Shown here: positions 28,757 to 37,960 of the stretch, piece after piece
Layout: each line of letters starts with the position of its first letter
Numbering within the stretch: position 1 is the first letter of the stretch
Source of the DNA: an uncultured Methanobrevibacter sp.
GTDB taxonomy: Archaea; Methanobacteriota; Methanobacteria; Methanobacteriales; Methanobacteriaceae
NCBI GenBank assembly: GCA_900314605.1
Contig: OMVX01000009.1
Coordinates: 35,877-86,961 of the forward strand
DNA: 51,085 nucleotides
Direction of reading: 5' to 3'
Position numbers and translations under genes: made by a program
The notes under the pieces: generated by a model
The model's database searches: none
The model's input: only the letters and a program-made list of their open reading frames with translations
Told to the model about the DNA's origin: nothing

Positions 28757-28812
28757 TAGAAAAAAAAAAGAAATAAAAAAATTATAGAATAAAATAAAAT
28801 ATTTTATTTTAT
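28757..28812 (-). terminator. Palindrome plus T-run after the surface-protein gene
   Basis: On the minus strand the end of the gene runs into AAAATAAAATATTTTATTTT, a perfect 20-base palindrome, then T-rich sequence including runs of seven and ten T. It should terminate transcription of the large surface-protein gene. Confidence 0.55.
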
Positions 28813-31193
28813 CCTGAAACAACTCTAATTAACTTTGCACGTAAGTCAACAGTTTTATCATAACCGCATACTGCACAAAAGTCTGCATCACATCCTCCAG
28901 CATAATGGTCTTTACTTGTACCACTTCCACAGGTAATTTCACCTTCATATACATGTTTAGGATTCCAGGTTAATTTACCTATTTTTTCACAGAACGGACA
29001 CCAATTAACATAAGTTCTTGTATAATTTTTATAGACAAGTTTACCTTTTTCCATCTCATAATAACAATGTAAACATGAAGGTTTACCTGAGACTGTTATT
29101 GTTGGAAGGCCTAAAGCTTTGACTTCTGTTTTTGTTAATGTCATTCCAGATTTAAGTTCTATAACTTTAATTGTACTTTTTCCACTACTAGGCTTATATT
29201 CTCCTTCATCAGGGCTTTCAAATTTGAAAGAGATACTGTAAGATCCAGCTTTTAAATTCTTAGAGATAGCTAGACTTATCTGCCCATTATTATCTGTGGT
29301 TCTTATAGCATTTTTACCATTATATGTAATGGTAACATTCTTATTTGCAAGTCCTACATTATTTTTAGCATTAACAAGGCTAATAATAAAGTTTCCACTA
29401 TTACCTTTAAGTAAATATAATGCCTCTCCACTTATTTTTGTTCTAATTCTTGTATCTACATTAACAGTTAATTTACTTGAACCACTTGCAGATTTGTAAT
29501 ATTTGTCTGATGTGGATTTGTATGTAATTGTGTAATTACCAGGGTCTGTATTAACTTTAACTTTTGCAATCCCATTGGAATTGGTTTTTGCTGTTAAATT
29601 TAAATTATTTACATTAAATGTAACTGTTTTTCCAGATAGAGGGTTCTTATTTTTATCTGTTAATTTTACCTGATAATATTCATCATTATATTCTATAATA
29701 CTTGCATCCTTTCCTTCGATATTTGTTTTACCTTTATTAACTGTTACAGTTATATTTTTTTGGGCTGTTTTAAGATTTGCAGAGCCTTCATAATAAATCA
29801 TTGTCTTATAATTTCCAGGATCTAATTGGATATGTAATGCTATTTCTCCTGTATTATTAGTTACTTTTTTATAAGTTTTTTTATTAATTGTAGTATAAAG
29901 CACAGTATTTTTTATAGGCTGATTATTAGCATTATAAAACTTAATTTTTATTGCTGCTTTTGAAGGGCAACTAGTATTACTATTAGAAGCTTTAATATAT
30001 GTTTTACCTTTTATAACACTAATAACAGTATTTTTACTTGAACCGTAGTATTCATCTTCATTAAAAAATTTTATATATGTACTATATTTTCCAGTATTTT
30101 GGGCAATTTTAAATCTAGCGACTCCATTTTCATTTGTTTTAGATTTAATACGTTCGCCATTAATATAGAGATAAACATTTTTATTTGGAATTCCCACTCC
30201 TTTTTGGTTTAATAATCTCACTGTATAGTTTTGACCAAGTCCATATCTAAAACTTTCACTTTTAGCATGTAGGATAGTTTTTATTTTATAAACATAAACA
30301 TCAATACTTTTACTTACAGCTTTGTAATTATTTCCACCTTTATAGCTAATTTTTGTAGGATATTTTCCAAGTTTAAGCTTACTAACCCCTAAACTAACAT
30401 TACCCTTTTTATTTGTCTTTTTTTTATAAGTTTTACCATTAATTTTAATAAAAATATTTGTATTAACTAAAGGATTTCCATATTTATCTTCAAGTAATAT
30501 TATTAAATTTTTCCCAGATTTATACACTATTTTATTGTTGGATACAACAATTTCTGGTTTAGTTTTTAAAACATTAATTTTAGATCCTCCAAAACAACCA
30601 GTATAATTTTCATTTCCATAATATTGGTAAGTAATCCTATAGGTATCTACTGGTAAATTAATCAATAGTTTAGCTATTCCATTTTTATCAGTAGTTTGAT
30701 TATAGACCTTTTTATTAATTATAAAAGTAATATTCTGATTAACTAATGGATTTAGATTTTTATCTAATAATCTTACTTTATAATGAGTGCCGCTTTTATA
30801 ATTAAAATTAGTATCATTTCCTTCTATTTTTGTAGATATTTTTCCATCTTCATCCATTGCAGATTGTGATGGTATATTTGTAGGAGTTTTTGGAGAATTG
30901 TCAACAGACGGGGGTTCAATGTTTGAAGTTTTATCATTTAATAGGGGATTTGCATTTATTTCATTATTATCATTGTTTTCCCCTTTTAATGCAAAATTTT
31001 CATTATTCAATATATTATCAGCATTCGTTTCAATTTCACTAGATTGATATAAATTATTTTCATATTTTAAATTATCATCTTCCATATTTACAGTATTTAT
31101 ATTATTATCTGATGCATTAATCGTTGTTAAACTAAAACATAGTATAAAAATTGCTAATAGTGTTATAAACAATGTTTTTTTATAAATCTTAAT
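28809..31193 (-). CDS. Secreted Ig-repeat surface (adhesin-like) protein with Cys-rich C-terminal domain; ATT start proposed
   Basis: 794 residues if started at ATT 31193. The n-region KIYKKT followed by a hydrophobic stretch ending near TTINASD is a signal peptide. Next comes a 100-residue Asn/Asp/Ser-rich linker, then six Ig-like repeats of about 90 residues, each with a T-x-x-x-G turn (for example TTDKNGIAK, KTNENGVAR, KTNSNGIAK). The last ~100 residues hold eight Cys (CLHC, WCPFC, TCG, GCDADFCAVCGY) that look like two zinc ribbons. No ATG, GTG or TTG follows the Shine-Dalgarno GAGGTG at the expected distance; ATT does, five bases on. A TTG at 31172 lacks a ribosome binding site and would remove the basic n-region. 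Confidence 0.82.
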   Translation of the reverse strand: MKIYKKTLFITLLAIFILCFSLTTINASDNNINTVNMEDDNLKYENNLYQSSEIETNADNILNNENFALKGENNDNNEINANPLLNDKTSNIEPPSVDNSPKTPTNIPSQSAMDEDGKISTKIEGNDTNFNYKSGTHYKVRLLDKNLNPLVNQNITFIINKKVYNQTTDKNGIAKLLINLPVDTYRITYQYYGNENYTGCFGGSKINVLKTKPEIVVSNNKIVYKSGKNLIILLEDKYGNPLVNTNIFIKINGKTYKKKTNKKGNVSLGVSKLKLGKYPTKISYKGGNNYKAVSKSIDVYVYKIKTILHAKSESFRYGLGQNYTVRLLNQKGVGIPNKNVYLYINGERIKSKTNENGVARFKIAQNTGKYSTYIKFFNEDEYYGSSKNTVISVIKGKTYIKASNSNTSCPSKAAIKIKFYNANNQPIKNTVLYTTINKKTYKKVTNNTGEIALHIQLDPGNYKTMIYYEGSANLKTAQKNITVTVNKGKTNIEGKDASIIEYNDEYYQVKLTDKNKNPLSGKTVTFNVNNLNLTAKTNSNGIAKVKVNTDPGNYTITYKSTSDKYYKSASGSSKLTVNVDTRIRTKISGEALYLLKGNSGNFIISLVNAKNNVGLANKNVTITYNGKNAIRTTDNNGQISLAISKNLKAGSYSISFKFESPDEGEYKPSSGKSTIKVIELKSGMTLTKTEVKALGLPTITVSGKPSCLHCYYEMEKGKLVYKNYTRTYVNWCPFCEKIGKLTWNPKHVYEGEITCGSGTSKDHYAGGCDADFCAVCGYDKTVDLRAKLIRVVSG

Positions 31194-31931
31194 AATTACA
31201 CCTCAATTTTTTCCAATGATGTTTAAAATATTTTAAAATCACATTAATTAATTTGAATATAATTTTAAAATTATTTTTTTTTAAACATTTATTGATTTTT
31301 AAATATTTTTTCCTATTTTTTTTAATTTTTTAAATCCATAATTATTTTAATATGTAATTTTATATAAATGTTTTTAAATTCAAAATAATGGGTAATTTAG
31401 TCTTTTTTAATCATAAATTCTCATATTTATTATTTTTTTTTTAAATTAATAAAAAATTATCAATATTCAATTTAATTTTTCTTAATTTAATTATATAATC
31501 TATGTTTTTTATTTTTTTCTTATTTTTAACTATTCTCTTAAATATTTATATAATATCTTATTTAAGAGTAATAATATAATATTAAACTTATTTAAATAGA
31601 ATTAAACTATTTTATAATAATTTAGTCTTATTTAATCTTTATTTTATTAATTTTATCTATTATTCAGTTGATTTTTTTATCAGTTTATTTTTTCATAAAC
31701 ATATTTTATAAAATAGAAAATTTTATTTTATATATAAAATTTATATTTTTAAAAACAAGTTTTAGGTTAAAAATAATTTTAGAGTATTGGAATTTTTATA
31801 CTTTCTAAAAATAAAGAATAATTATATTTTCAAATCTAAACTAATATATTATATTAGATATAATAATTATATTTTTAAATATATTAAATTTTAAAATTAA
31901 TTTTTTATTTAGTAGTCTAATTGTGATTTTT
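31194..31931. other. Long divergent intergenic region, no gene seen
   Basis: About 740 bases, over 80 percent A and T, between the divergent surface-protein gene and DUF366. A perfect 17-base palindrome CTAATATATTATATTAG lies at 31841-31857, some 75 bases before the DUF366 start, and may be an operator or a chance AT palindrome. I see no coding frame with a ribosome binding site. Confidence 0.5.
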
Positions 31932-32531
31932 ATGTCAATAATCCATAAGCATATTAATGAGAAATTTCCATATGATGGAAGTCAAATAGACCCTTTATGG
32001 GCTTTTAGAGAATTTAATATTAAAGGATCTTCAATTATTTCTTGGAGAGGACCTATGAATATAAGTCCAGAGAATATTAAAGATTTTGCAGATATAGATA
32101 CTGAGATAAAATCAGATGAAATGTTTCATATAATATCTGAATTTTTTGATTGTCAACCGGCAAATATGGAAATTGCATATTTACGTCAAAGATTATTAAT
32201 ACTAATATTTTATGAAAAATTATCTAAATTAGGTGTTCTTATAAAGCGTGAAGGTGATGACATTTATATAGAAGATAGAAAATTAAGTGTTTGTATAGCA
32301 TCTTCTTCCATTAGTTCTATGAAAATCCATTTCGCACTAAATATACAGGATAAGGGAACTCCTTCTAATATTAAAACTATAGGTTTATTCGAAATTAATG
32401 ACTATCAAGGTAATCTTGTTTTTAATAATGATAATATATTGAATTTTTTCTTTGATTTAATTGAATCATATATTAACGAATTAGAAACCATACAGTTGGA
32501 TATTAGCAAAACAAAATTATTAGGATTTTAA
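31932..32531 (+). CDS. DUF366-family protein
   Basis: 199-residue cytoplasmic protein that matches my memory of the archaeal DUF366 family (COG2029), with FPYDGSQIDPLWAFREFNI near the N-terminus and ISWRGPMNI soon after. No catalytic motif is recognised and no function is known. The start is ATG 31932, with GTGAT before it; an in-frame GTG three codons earlier is that same Shine-Dalgarno sequence. It is upstream of queD, but 333 bases separate them, so there is no firm link with archaeosine synthesis. Confidence 0.72.
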   Translation: MSIIHKHINEKFPYDGSQIDPLWAFREFNIKGSSIISWRGPMNISPENIKDFADIDTEIKSDEMFHIISEFFDCQPANMEIAYLRQRLLILIFYEKLSKLGVLIKREGDDIYIEDRKLSVCIASSSISSMKIHFALNIQDKGTPSNIKTIGLFEINDYQGNLVFNNDNILNFFFDLIESYINELETIQLDISKTKLLGF

Positions 32532-35253: not shown

Positions 35254-36075
35254 ATGCAAATTAAAAATATCATGACTGAAGATTTAATAACTATTAATAA
35301 GGATCAAAATATTTTAGATGCTTTAAAATTACTTAGAAAAAATAAAATATCTAGATTACCTGTAGTAAATACTAATCAAGATAATGAAAAAGAATTAGTA
35401 GGTATTGTTTCTGAAAGGGATATTGCAAATAAATTAGGTTCATCTAAAATTGATAAATTATCTCCATCTAATTTACACATATCTTCTGTTATGGTAAAAG
35501 ATATTATATCTGTAGATAAATCAATGGATTTAGTTGAAGTTGCTAATATTATGTTAGAAAATGGTATTGGTTCTGTTCCAGTTCAAGATGATGATATGAT
35601 GATAGGTATTGTATCTAAAGCAGATTTTGTTAGTTTATGTGTCAGTAAACCCTATGAAAAAATTACTGTTGGGGAAGTAATGACAAAAAATGTGATTTCT
35701 GTTTCAATGGATGATAGATTAATCCATGCAAGGCGTGTAATTATAGATAATAAAATAGGTAGGTTACTTGTAACTGCTGATGCAAATAATGAACTTGTTG
35801 GAATAATTACTTCAAAAGATATTATTAGAGTTTTACTAGACTTTAAAAAACATACTCCTGAAAAATATCAAAAATCACAAATTAAAAACTTATTTGTTGA
35901 TGATATAATGTCCGAAAATGTTTCAGCTGTTTCCAGTGAGGATACTATTGCTGATGTTGCAAATCAGATGATGGAAACAGGATTTAATGGATATCCTGTT
36001 ATAAATGATAATAATGAAGTAATTGGGATTATTACACAAACTGATTTACTTGCTCTTTGTGCAGATATAGAGTAA
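35254..36075 (+). CDS. Four-CBS-domain protein
   Basis: 273-residue protein consisting almost entirely of four CBS domains, starting at residue 1 with IKNIMTEDLITI. Repeats end in GIVSERDIA, GIVSKADFV, GIITSKDII and GIITQTDLL. A paralog of the preceding gene but without its basic N-terminal extension. Likely a nucleotide-responsive regulator of an unlinked target. GGGAGAG precedes the ATG; the gene ends 62 bases before pheA. Confidence 0.9.
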   Translation: MQIKNIMTEDLITINKDQNILDALKLLRKNKISRLPVVNTNQDNEKELVGIVSERDIANKLGSSKIDKLSPSNLHISSVMVKDIISVDKSMDLVEVANIMLENGIGSVPVQDDDMMIGIVSKADFVSLCVSKPYEKITVGEVMTKNVISVSMDDRLIHARRVIIDNKIGRLLVTADANNELVGIITSKDIIRVLLDFKKHTPEKYQKSQIKNLFVDDIMSENVSAVSSEDTIADVANQMMETGFNGYPVINDNNEVIGIITQTDLLALCADIE

Positions 36076-36137
36076 ATATAAAAATATTTTTTCAATATCT
36101 CTTTTTTTATTTTTTTTAAATTTTTGGAGGGTTTCTT

Positions 36138-36971
36138 ATTTTAAATATAGCTTTTTTAGGCCCTAAAGGCACTTTCACTCATGAAGCTACAAGTAAATTA
36201 GTATCAGTTATAGATGAGGACATTGATAATATTTGTTTAAAGGATTTTGATACTATTAATAATGTTATGGATGCAATTACTTCTGGTGATTGTATAAAAG
36301 GGGTTGTTCCTATTGAAAATTCACTTGGAGGACCTATAAACATTACATATGATTTACTTTCACATGATTATGATTTAAAGATTGAATCCGAAATTATAAT
36401 AAATATTAATCATAATTTATTAGCTCCAAAAGGAGTAAAAATAGAAGATATTACTGATGTTTATTCTCATTATCAGGCGTTAGTTCAATGTCATAATTAT
36501 CTTGAAAAAATGGGTTTTAAGATACATCCTACATCTAGTACTGCTTATGCTGCTAAAATTATTCAAAAATCTAAAAATGTTTCTGCAATAGGTACCTTAA
36601 AAGCTGCTGAATTATATGATCTTCATGTTTTAAAAAAAAATATTCAAGATGCTACAAACAACCAAACAAGGTTTATAGTATTGTCCAATAATGATAGTAA
36701 TAATAGGATAAATGTTAAAACAGCTATAGTTTTTTCTCTTTATGAAGATAACCCTGGAGGTTTATATGGTATTTTGGGTATTTTTGCCGAATTTAATATT
36801 AATTTAACTAAAATAGAATCTAGACCATCTAAAAAATATTTAGGAGATTATATTTTCTTCATAGACTTTGAAGGCCATAGAAAAGATGAAAACATCTCTA
36901 AAATCCTTACTTTAATTGAAAATAACACTTCCTTTTTTAAAGTTTTAGGTTCTTATTATTTAATAGAATAA
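36138..36971 (+). CDS. pheA: Prephenate dehydratase, ATT start proposed
   Basis: 277-residue enzyme that converts prephenate to phenylpyruvate in phenylalanine synthesis. Family features: the N-terminal IAFLGPKGTFTHEA, NSLGGPINITYD, the catalytic NQTRF, and a C-terminal ACT domain with ESRPSKKYLGDY for phenylalanine feedback. The first in-frame ATG (36267) lies after 43 codons and would delete the conserved first strand and GPKGTFTHEA. No ATG, GTG or TTG is available upstream, but ATT at 36138 sits six bases after the perfect Shine-Dalgarno GGAGGG (36126-36131) and at the exact place of the usual initiator. I therefore propose AUU initiation. Confidence 0.92.
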   Translation: MLNIAFLGPKGTFTHEATSKLVSVIDEDIDNICLKDFDTINNVMDAITSGDCIKGVVPIENSLGGPINITYDLLSHDYDLKIESEIIININHNLLAPKGVKIEDITDVYSHYQALVQCHNYLEKMGFKIHPTSSTAYAAKIIQKSKNVSAIGTLKAAELYDLHVLKKNIQDATNNQTRFIVLSNNDSNNRINVKTAIVFSLYEDNPGGLYGILGIFAEFNINLTKIESRPSKKYLGDYIFFIDFEGHRKDENISKILTLIENNTSFFKVLGSYYLIE

Positions 36972-37276: not shown

Positions 37277-37960
37277 ATTATTAATCCAGATAAAGAAAAA
37301 CTTATTAAGATTATGAAAGAACTTAAAGCTGATCATCAGGCAGGTAAAATTTCTGATGAAAAGTATAGACAGCTTTCTAGACAATATATGCTTAAATTAA
37401 AGAATATTGATGCATCTAGTAGAATTCGAACTATGCAAGGTAGACCAAATTCTTTTAATCAACCACATAATTATAGACCAGATAAGAGAGCTGCAGAATT
37501 AAGTAGAAGAGAAGATGAAAAATTAGTAAAAAAATATGTTGTTAATCCTAGAACAGGTAAAAGTAATAAATCTAAAAATAAAACATCTAATAAAGGTAAA
37601 TATGCTATTATTGCAACTATATTTTTAATTTTTGCGTTTACTACAGGGATTGGCTTTGGAATGGTAAACTTTGATTTCCAATCATCAAATACAAACTCTT
37701 CAGTACTCGTTGCAGATTCTGCATTTCCTATAGAATTAAATAATGTTTCTACTTTAAATTCAAGTACCACATCTCCTTCTGCAAAAACAGATAGTTCTTC
37801 AACTACATCTATTAGTCCTAAATCTTCATCTGGTTCATCAACTGATACTCCTATTAATCCAGATGATGATTCTGGTAAAGGTGGGGGTTCTGATTCTGGT
37901 AAAGGTGGAGGCTCTGATTCTGGTGGTGATGATGAGCATGATTCTAATAAAGTTAGTTGA
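37277..37960 (+). CDS. Single-pass membrane protein with short-helix N-terminal domain and Gly/Ser/Asp-rich tail; ATT start possible
   Basis: About 227 residues. The N-terminal 40 residues (PDKEKLIKIMKELKADHQAG then KISDEKYRQL) form a SHOCT-like helical domain. Basic linker, one membrane helix (about residues 110-130), then an outer Ser/Thr-rich region and an acidic Gly-Ser-Asp repeat tail. The first ATG is at 37313, inside the first helix and without a ribosome binding site. ATT at 37277 follows AGGT by seven bases and would give a complete helix (II/MI-NPDKEKL). The start is therefore uncertain. Function unknown; the next gene encodes another membrane-anchored protein and may be its partner. 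Confidence 0.7.
   Translation: MINPDKEKLIKIMKELKADHQAGKISDEKYRQLSRQYMLKLKNIDASSRIRTMQGRPNSFNQPHNYRPDKRAAELSRREDEKLVKKYVVNPRTGKSNKSKNKTSNKGKYAIIATIFLIFAFTTGIGFGMVNFDFQSSNTNSSVLVADSAFPIELNNVSTLNSSTTSPSAKTDSSSTTSISPKSSSGSSTDTPINPDDDSGKGGGSDSGKGGGSDSGGDDEHDSNKVS
37868..37930 (+). repeat. 24-bp coding tandem repeat (DSGKGGGS)
   Basis: Two full copies of a 24-base unit encoding DSGKGGGS (37868-37891 and 37892-37915), followed by a partial third copy. It forms the flexible tail of the membrane protein. Its GC content is clearly above that of the surroundings, and repeat number may vary between strains. Confidence 0.85.

Follow-up and report, generated by a model that had tools for sequence, protein, structure and literature searches.

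At the pheA locus of an uncultured Methanobrevibacter sp. (contig OMVX01000009.1), the first ATG of the reading frame lies well inside the conserved protein, and the question is at which codon translation begins. The locus was analysed in a window, meaning the whole 51,085-nucleotide stretch of DNA, from a genome assembly of 2.37 Mb in 103 contigs (GC 25.6% in the sampled stretches). Four species of its genus were compared. The features of the locus are as follows.

35254..36075, + strand: gene for a four-CBS-domain protein, with a canonical ATG, upstream of pheA.
36117..36119, + strand: in-frame TAA stop just 5' of the pheA start region, read from the sequence.
36126..36131, + strand: Shine-Dalgarno (SD) motif GGAGGG, its first G 12 nt before the ATT, the distance most common among canonical starts of the genome.
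36138..36140, + strand: ATT assigned as the pheA start codon; the same alignment column is ATT in 4/4 species of the genus.
36138..36971, + strand: pheA, prephenate dehydratase (PDT domain PF00800 and ACT domain PF01842), 277 aa.
36267..36269, + strand: first in-frame ATG of pheA; a start there loses residues 1-43, including FLGPKGTFT.

The pheA frame is open from 36120 to 36971 and contains no in-frame ATG, GTG or TTG before ATG 36267, which is codon 44 of the conserved protein. GGAGGG is followed by six bases (TTTCTT) and then by the ATT at 36138, after which the codons TTA AAT ATA GCT TTT TTA GGC CCT AAA GGC ACT carry the sequence NIAFLGPKGT. The product is complete as a prephenate dehydratase, its PDT catalytic domain being followed by the ACT regulatory domain (PF01842, residues 201-256). 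PF00800 matched residues 4-186 with 196-197 bits, residue 4 aligning to profile position 1, and NF008865 matched with 285 bits (cutoff 219). In the sampled part of the window genome, the spacing from the first G of GGAGG to a canonical start peaked at 12 nt (62/109), and GGAGGG has its first G at exactly this distance from ATT 36138. The CBS-domain gene and pheA are separated by a T-rich spacer (36076-36125), present in many g5 species too, which may act as a transcription terminator ahead of pheA.

The original prediction had been that pheA lacks a canonical start before its conserved N-terminus and that an ATT occupies the initiator position six bases after GGAGGG; both statements were confirmed. 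AUU as the initiator is supported by homology, by SD spacing and by conservation, the last of these from the comparison of related strains that had been proposed (ATT in the four species of the genus, ATT or ATA in 60/110 family genes). The prediction had also counted two further genes of this kind in the window, and the number was right (37277 on the + strand and 31193 on the - strand). Translation of pheA very probably begins at AUU 36138, behind a strong SD, with a tolerated third-base mismatch to Met-tRNAi; such a start would be ancient and held in pheA, and would serve other genes as well.

Starts were assigned by reading 110 pheA genes of the family and comprised ATT (42), ATA (18), ATG (47) and TTG (1), with two unclear; the SD helped to place about 15 of the 60 ATT/ATA positions. 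In-frame ATG, GTG and TTG were absent in 40 of these 60 genes, 22 of them in g5 and the others in g1, g2, g4, g7, g8, g9, g10 and g16. In the remaining 20, such a codon exists and is most often a GTG inside the SD; a few, for example G022, G109 and G119, have an in-frame ATG 16, 8-10 or 2 codons upstream of the conserved F. An in-frame stop lies directly 5' of the ATT/ATA in six genes (G006, G031, G042, G047, G057 and G112). The same pheA column can hold ATG in one g4 sister (G038) and ATT in the other (G031). One further locus, G040:C69:32062-32852, has pheA in pieces with in-frame stops, and is probably a pseudogene or an assembly fault.

On the PheA protein tree, eight changes between ATH and ATG suffice. 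ATT/ATA predominates in a clade with g1, g2, g4, g5, g7, g9, g10 and g16, within which most of g10 and scattered other members have ATG. Apart from g10, ATG starts 8/68 pheA genes of this clade, with G at about 8% of fourfold sites. The third base of the start was T in 42 genes, A in 18, G in 8 and C in none, and silent sites had T.48, A.32, C.12 and G.08. The AUU/AUA start of pheA appears to be ancient in the family and to have been held across many genera.

Other genes were surveyed in 36% of the window genome and in stretches of three relatives. Where an in-frame codon stood at the 12-nt SD spacing and the canonical start was at least 8 codons further, that codon was ATT, ATA or ATC in 14/30 cases (four genomes pooled), compared to a background of 15.7% (binomial P 7e-5) and to 10/86 at control spacings (Fisher P 1.4e-4). 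Ortholog pairs whose two members both had an SD at exactly 12 nt comprised 56 ATG/ATG, 9 TTG/TTG and 9 ATG/TTG pairs; 9 pairs were ATH/ATH (three genes: pheA, gatB and the surface protein at 31193 of the window) and one was ATG/ATH. The two other genes in the window are as follows.

37277..37960, + strand: second ATT-start gene, beginning at ATT 37277 or 37280 after AGGTTGATGG.
28809..31193, - strand: third ATT-start gene, encoding an Ig-like-domain surface protein with a signal peptide; ATT 31193, GAGGTG at 12-nt spacing.

The arrangement at 37277 is identical in G003 and in G028, which belongs to another genus, and no Pfam or NCBIfam family matched the product. The ATT of the 31193 gene is kept in the nearest species (G002). 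The frame at 31845 (+) was rejected as a further ATT gene, since it opens with a normal ATG near 31932, behind GTGAT at a 13-nt spacing in both G000 and G002.

Beyond the window, mfnE has ATT, ATC or ATA at the SD-spaced position across genera, and 15/26 loci, including those of G023 and G027, have no in-frame canonical start. These loci (L091:18026-18685 in G003, and L234-L259) encode a methanofuran-pathway kinase, with an NCBIfam MfnE match of 147 bits, below the cutoff of 300. In four genomes gatB has ATT or ATC at 12-nt SD spacing (L079:13009(-), L266:2532(+), L084:7968(-) and L126:12856(+)), and its first ATG lies 6-12 nt beyond, at a distance that varies between genomes; gatB probably starts at the ATT/ATC, the nearby ATG being a possible start too. 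In three genomes, proteins of surface or adhesin-like type that carry signal peptides start at ATT/ATA after a strong SD (L142:4950(-), L148:6122(+), L083:6118(+), L094:12326(+) and L128:18825(-)). Several of the ATT/ATA/ATC codons at 12-nt spacing open textbook signal peptides, for example at the first two of these loci. A CoaB-like frame in G023 (L124:11264(-)) begins at an ATC behind GAGGTG; its relative in G028 is longer, and the frame corresponds to the C-terminal part of that relative. Taken at sequence level, these cases indicate that a small number of other genes in the lineage also start at AUU, AUA or, occasionally, AUC.

In pheA, the predicted SD pairing is much stronger in front of ATT/ATA than in front of ATG. 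Pattern searches for the 16S 3' end gave no hit even in single-contig genomes, presumably owing to masking. With anti-SD pairing therefore assumed, the median SD duplex energy was -10.2 kcal/mol in ATH pheA genes (n=60) and -3.1 kcal/mol in ATG pheA genes (n=47) (Mann-Whitney P 3e-17, ignoring relatedness); it was -5.4 kcal/mol in the ATG-first ORFs of the window genome. Nearly all of five independent contrasts went in the direction expected of SD compensation, a trend that is confounded by phylogeny (sign-test P 0.125). The pheA of G023 starts at ATG and has no recognisable SD.

The best-supported mechanism, as far as can be told from the genomes, is that a very strong SD offsets the third-base mismatch. 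GGAGGG at optimal spacing would position the pheA mRNA and bring AUU into the P site, where the ordinary Met-tRNAi(CAU) would pair with the A and U of AUU and the mismatch at the third base would be tolerated, so that PheA would begin with Met despite its AUU codon. The sampled stretches yielded only one tRNA-Met(CAT), which is uninformative on an odd initiator tRNA. With reconstituted E. coli factors, CAU can read AUU, and IF3 reduces this reading (PMC10158994). A strong SD with a weak codon and a weak SD with AUG may be alternative routes to one modest initiation rate. The position of the start follows from homology, conservation, SD spacing and the other genes; Met, the ordinary Met-tRNAi and the modest rate are inferred.

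Starts of this kind are known from a few bacterial genes. The infC gene, encoding IF3, starts at AUU or AUC and is autoregulated, and E. coli pcnB starts at AUU. The pheA start resembles that of infC in its near-cognate AUU at a proper SD, its wide conservation and its mismatch at the third base only; it differs in that infC is bacterial and its product is a fidelity factor, whereas pheA encodes an archaeal biosynthetic enzyme and aIF1 starts at ATG. The pcnB gene is likewise a single metabolic or processing gene on AUU, but a bacterial one. In Streptomyces, sigR starts at GTC with the SD AGGAGGTG in 32/34 species (PMC5472188). It is not an initiation-factor gene, has an unusually strong SD and a conserved odd third base, and is misannotated in public genomes (PMC5472188), all as in pheA; however, it is actinobacterial, its codons are GUC/GUU and its repression by IF3 was shown by experiment, whereas the AUU/AUA starts here are archaeal and predicted from sequence. 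The pheA start would work like those of infC, pcnB and above all sigR, and differs in being archaeal and in being spread over unrelated genes. Archaeal GUG and UUG starts share non-AUG initiation on leadered, SD-bearing mRNA (review PMC7531240), but their mismatch is at the first base, and that of AUU, AUA and AUC at the third. A term search of that review turned up AUG, GUG and UUG as the only start codons named, and no mention of AUU, near-cognate or non-AUG. We found no earlier report of AUU/AUA starts for Methanobrevibacter or archaea in open-access papers, a restriction that makes this weak evidence of novelty.

The alternative that survives best concerns not the position of the start but its purpose. 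The original prediction had linked AUU to regulation through initiation factors, and this link was left unsupported: its models, infC and pcnB, are bacterial, whereas the host belongs to the archaeal Methanobrevibacter group, to which a reading built on bacterial IF3/infC is not transferable. The product here is PheA and not a start-codon fidelity factor, and aIF1, the closest archaeal factor with that role, itself starts at ATG in 24/24 family genomes checked, which rules out infC-like autoregulation of aIF1. SUI1 (aIF1) is present in the same number of genomes (24/24), ruling out lax initiation caused by loss of aIF1. The broadest form of a regulatory reading is that the whole family has come to accept AUN, with any third base, as a start and that pheA, mfnE, gatB and the surface proteins are held on AUU, AUA or AUC as an archaeal control of the infC/sigR kind, acting through aIF1/aIF2 fidelity; we regard this as doubtful. 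It is also unlikely that pheA carries its AUU/AUA as a dedicated regulatory device like infC or sigR, with initiation following growth state or how active a fidelity factor (aIF1, aIF1A or aIF2) is. Such a device would fit the long conservation in pheA and mfnE with few changes on the pheA tree, the excess of ATH/ATH over ATG/ATH ortholog pairs, and the combination of a strong SD with an odd codon, which is the architecture of sigR (PMC5472188). However, the third base of the pheA start varies with a make-up close to that of silent sites, save for the absence of C, so there is no clear selection against AUG, and this argues for tolerance with a strong SD over a dedicated switch. Moreover, many relatives, including G023 and G027, start pheA at ATG, and the AUU/AUA/AUC genes (mfnE, probably gatB, and surface proteins) have no common function or regulatory theme. 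The pattern looks more like two interchangeable means of reaching one initiation rate than like a switch, and we infer that dedicated regulation is absent.

Initiation at a neighbouring codon (CTT 36135 or TTA 36141) or at another near-cognate codon, instead of ATT 36138, is very unlikely. Several codons can in principle serve for non-AUG initiation, and relative to the PheA protein the ATH lies one codon earlier in g2, g7 and some g5 species. However, the column of ATT 36138 is the sole one that is always AT[T/A/G] across g1, g4, g9 and most of g5, while the column of CTT 36135 varies across relatives (ATT, AAA, AGT, CGC etc.) and in g4 a stop codon lies directly 5' of the ATT.

Translation from ATG 36267 with the upstream part untranslated is barely credible. 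This ATG is the first canonical start of pheA and the one that a standard gene finder would pick, but starting there would cut 43 residues of a PDT domain whose model aligns from residue 4 at profile position 1, residues that ATG-starting relatives encode. The 43 codons between ATT 36138 and ATG 36267 differ from those of the nearest species at 7/3/15 sites by codon position, with 11 synonymous and 10 non-synonymous codons (protein identity 77%). They evolve as coding sequence, which indicates that they are translated. For ATG 36267, no SD match of 4 bases was reported within the accepted spacing. A frameshift into pheA from a different frame that starts further upstream was ruled out, as no such frame is open: from the stop of the upstream gene to 36267, no ATG, GTG or TTG in the other frames opens more than 16 codons.

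A sequencing or assembly error in place of a true G, which the prediction itself had raised as a way to overturn it and which an assembly of 103 contigs might suggest, has practically no chance of being correct and is excluded by the conservation of ATT across species, with ATT/ATA in the four species of the genus and in dozens of other assemblies, including the single-contig G028 and G051.

Initiation codons mismatched at the third base are very rare; a single AUG-to-AUU change was reconstructed among 61,358 ancestral AUG starts in one survey (PMC5622118). Gene callers limited to ATG, GTG and TTG will truncate PheA and MfnE in these genomes and misplace the signal peptides of surface proteins. 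The persistence of AUU/AUA in one gene through many gut-methanogen genera, together with such starts in other genes, offers an archaeal system for testing how far aIF1 and aIF2 tolerate a mismatch at the third base.
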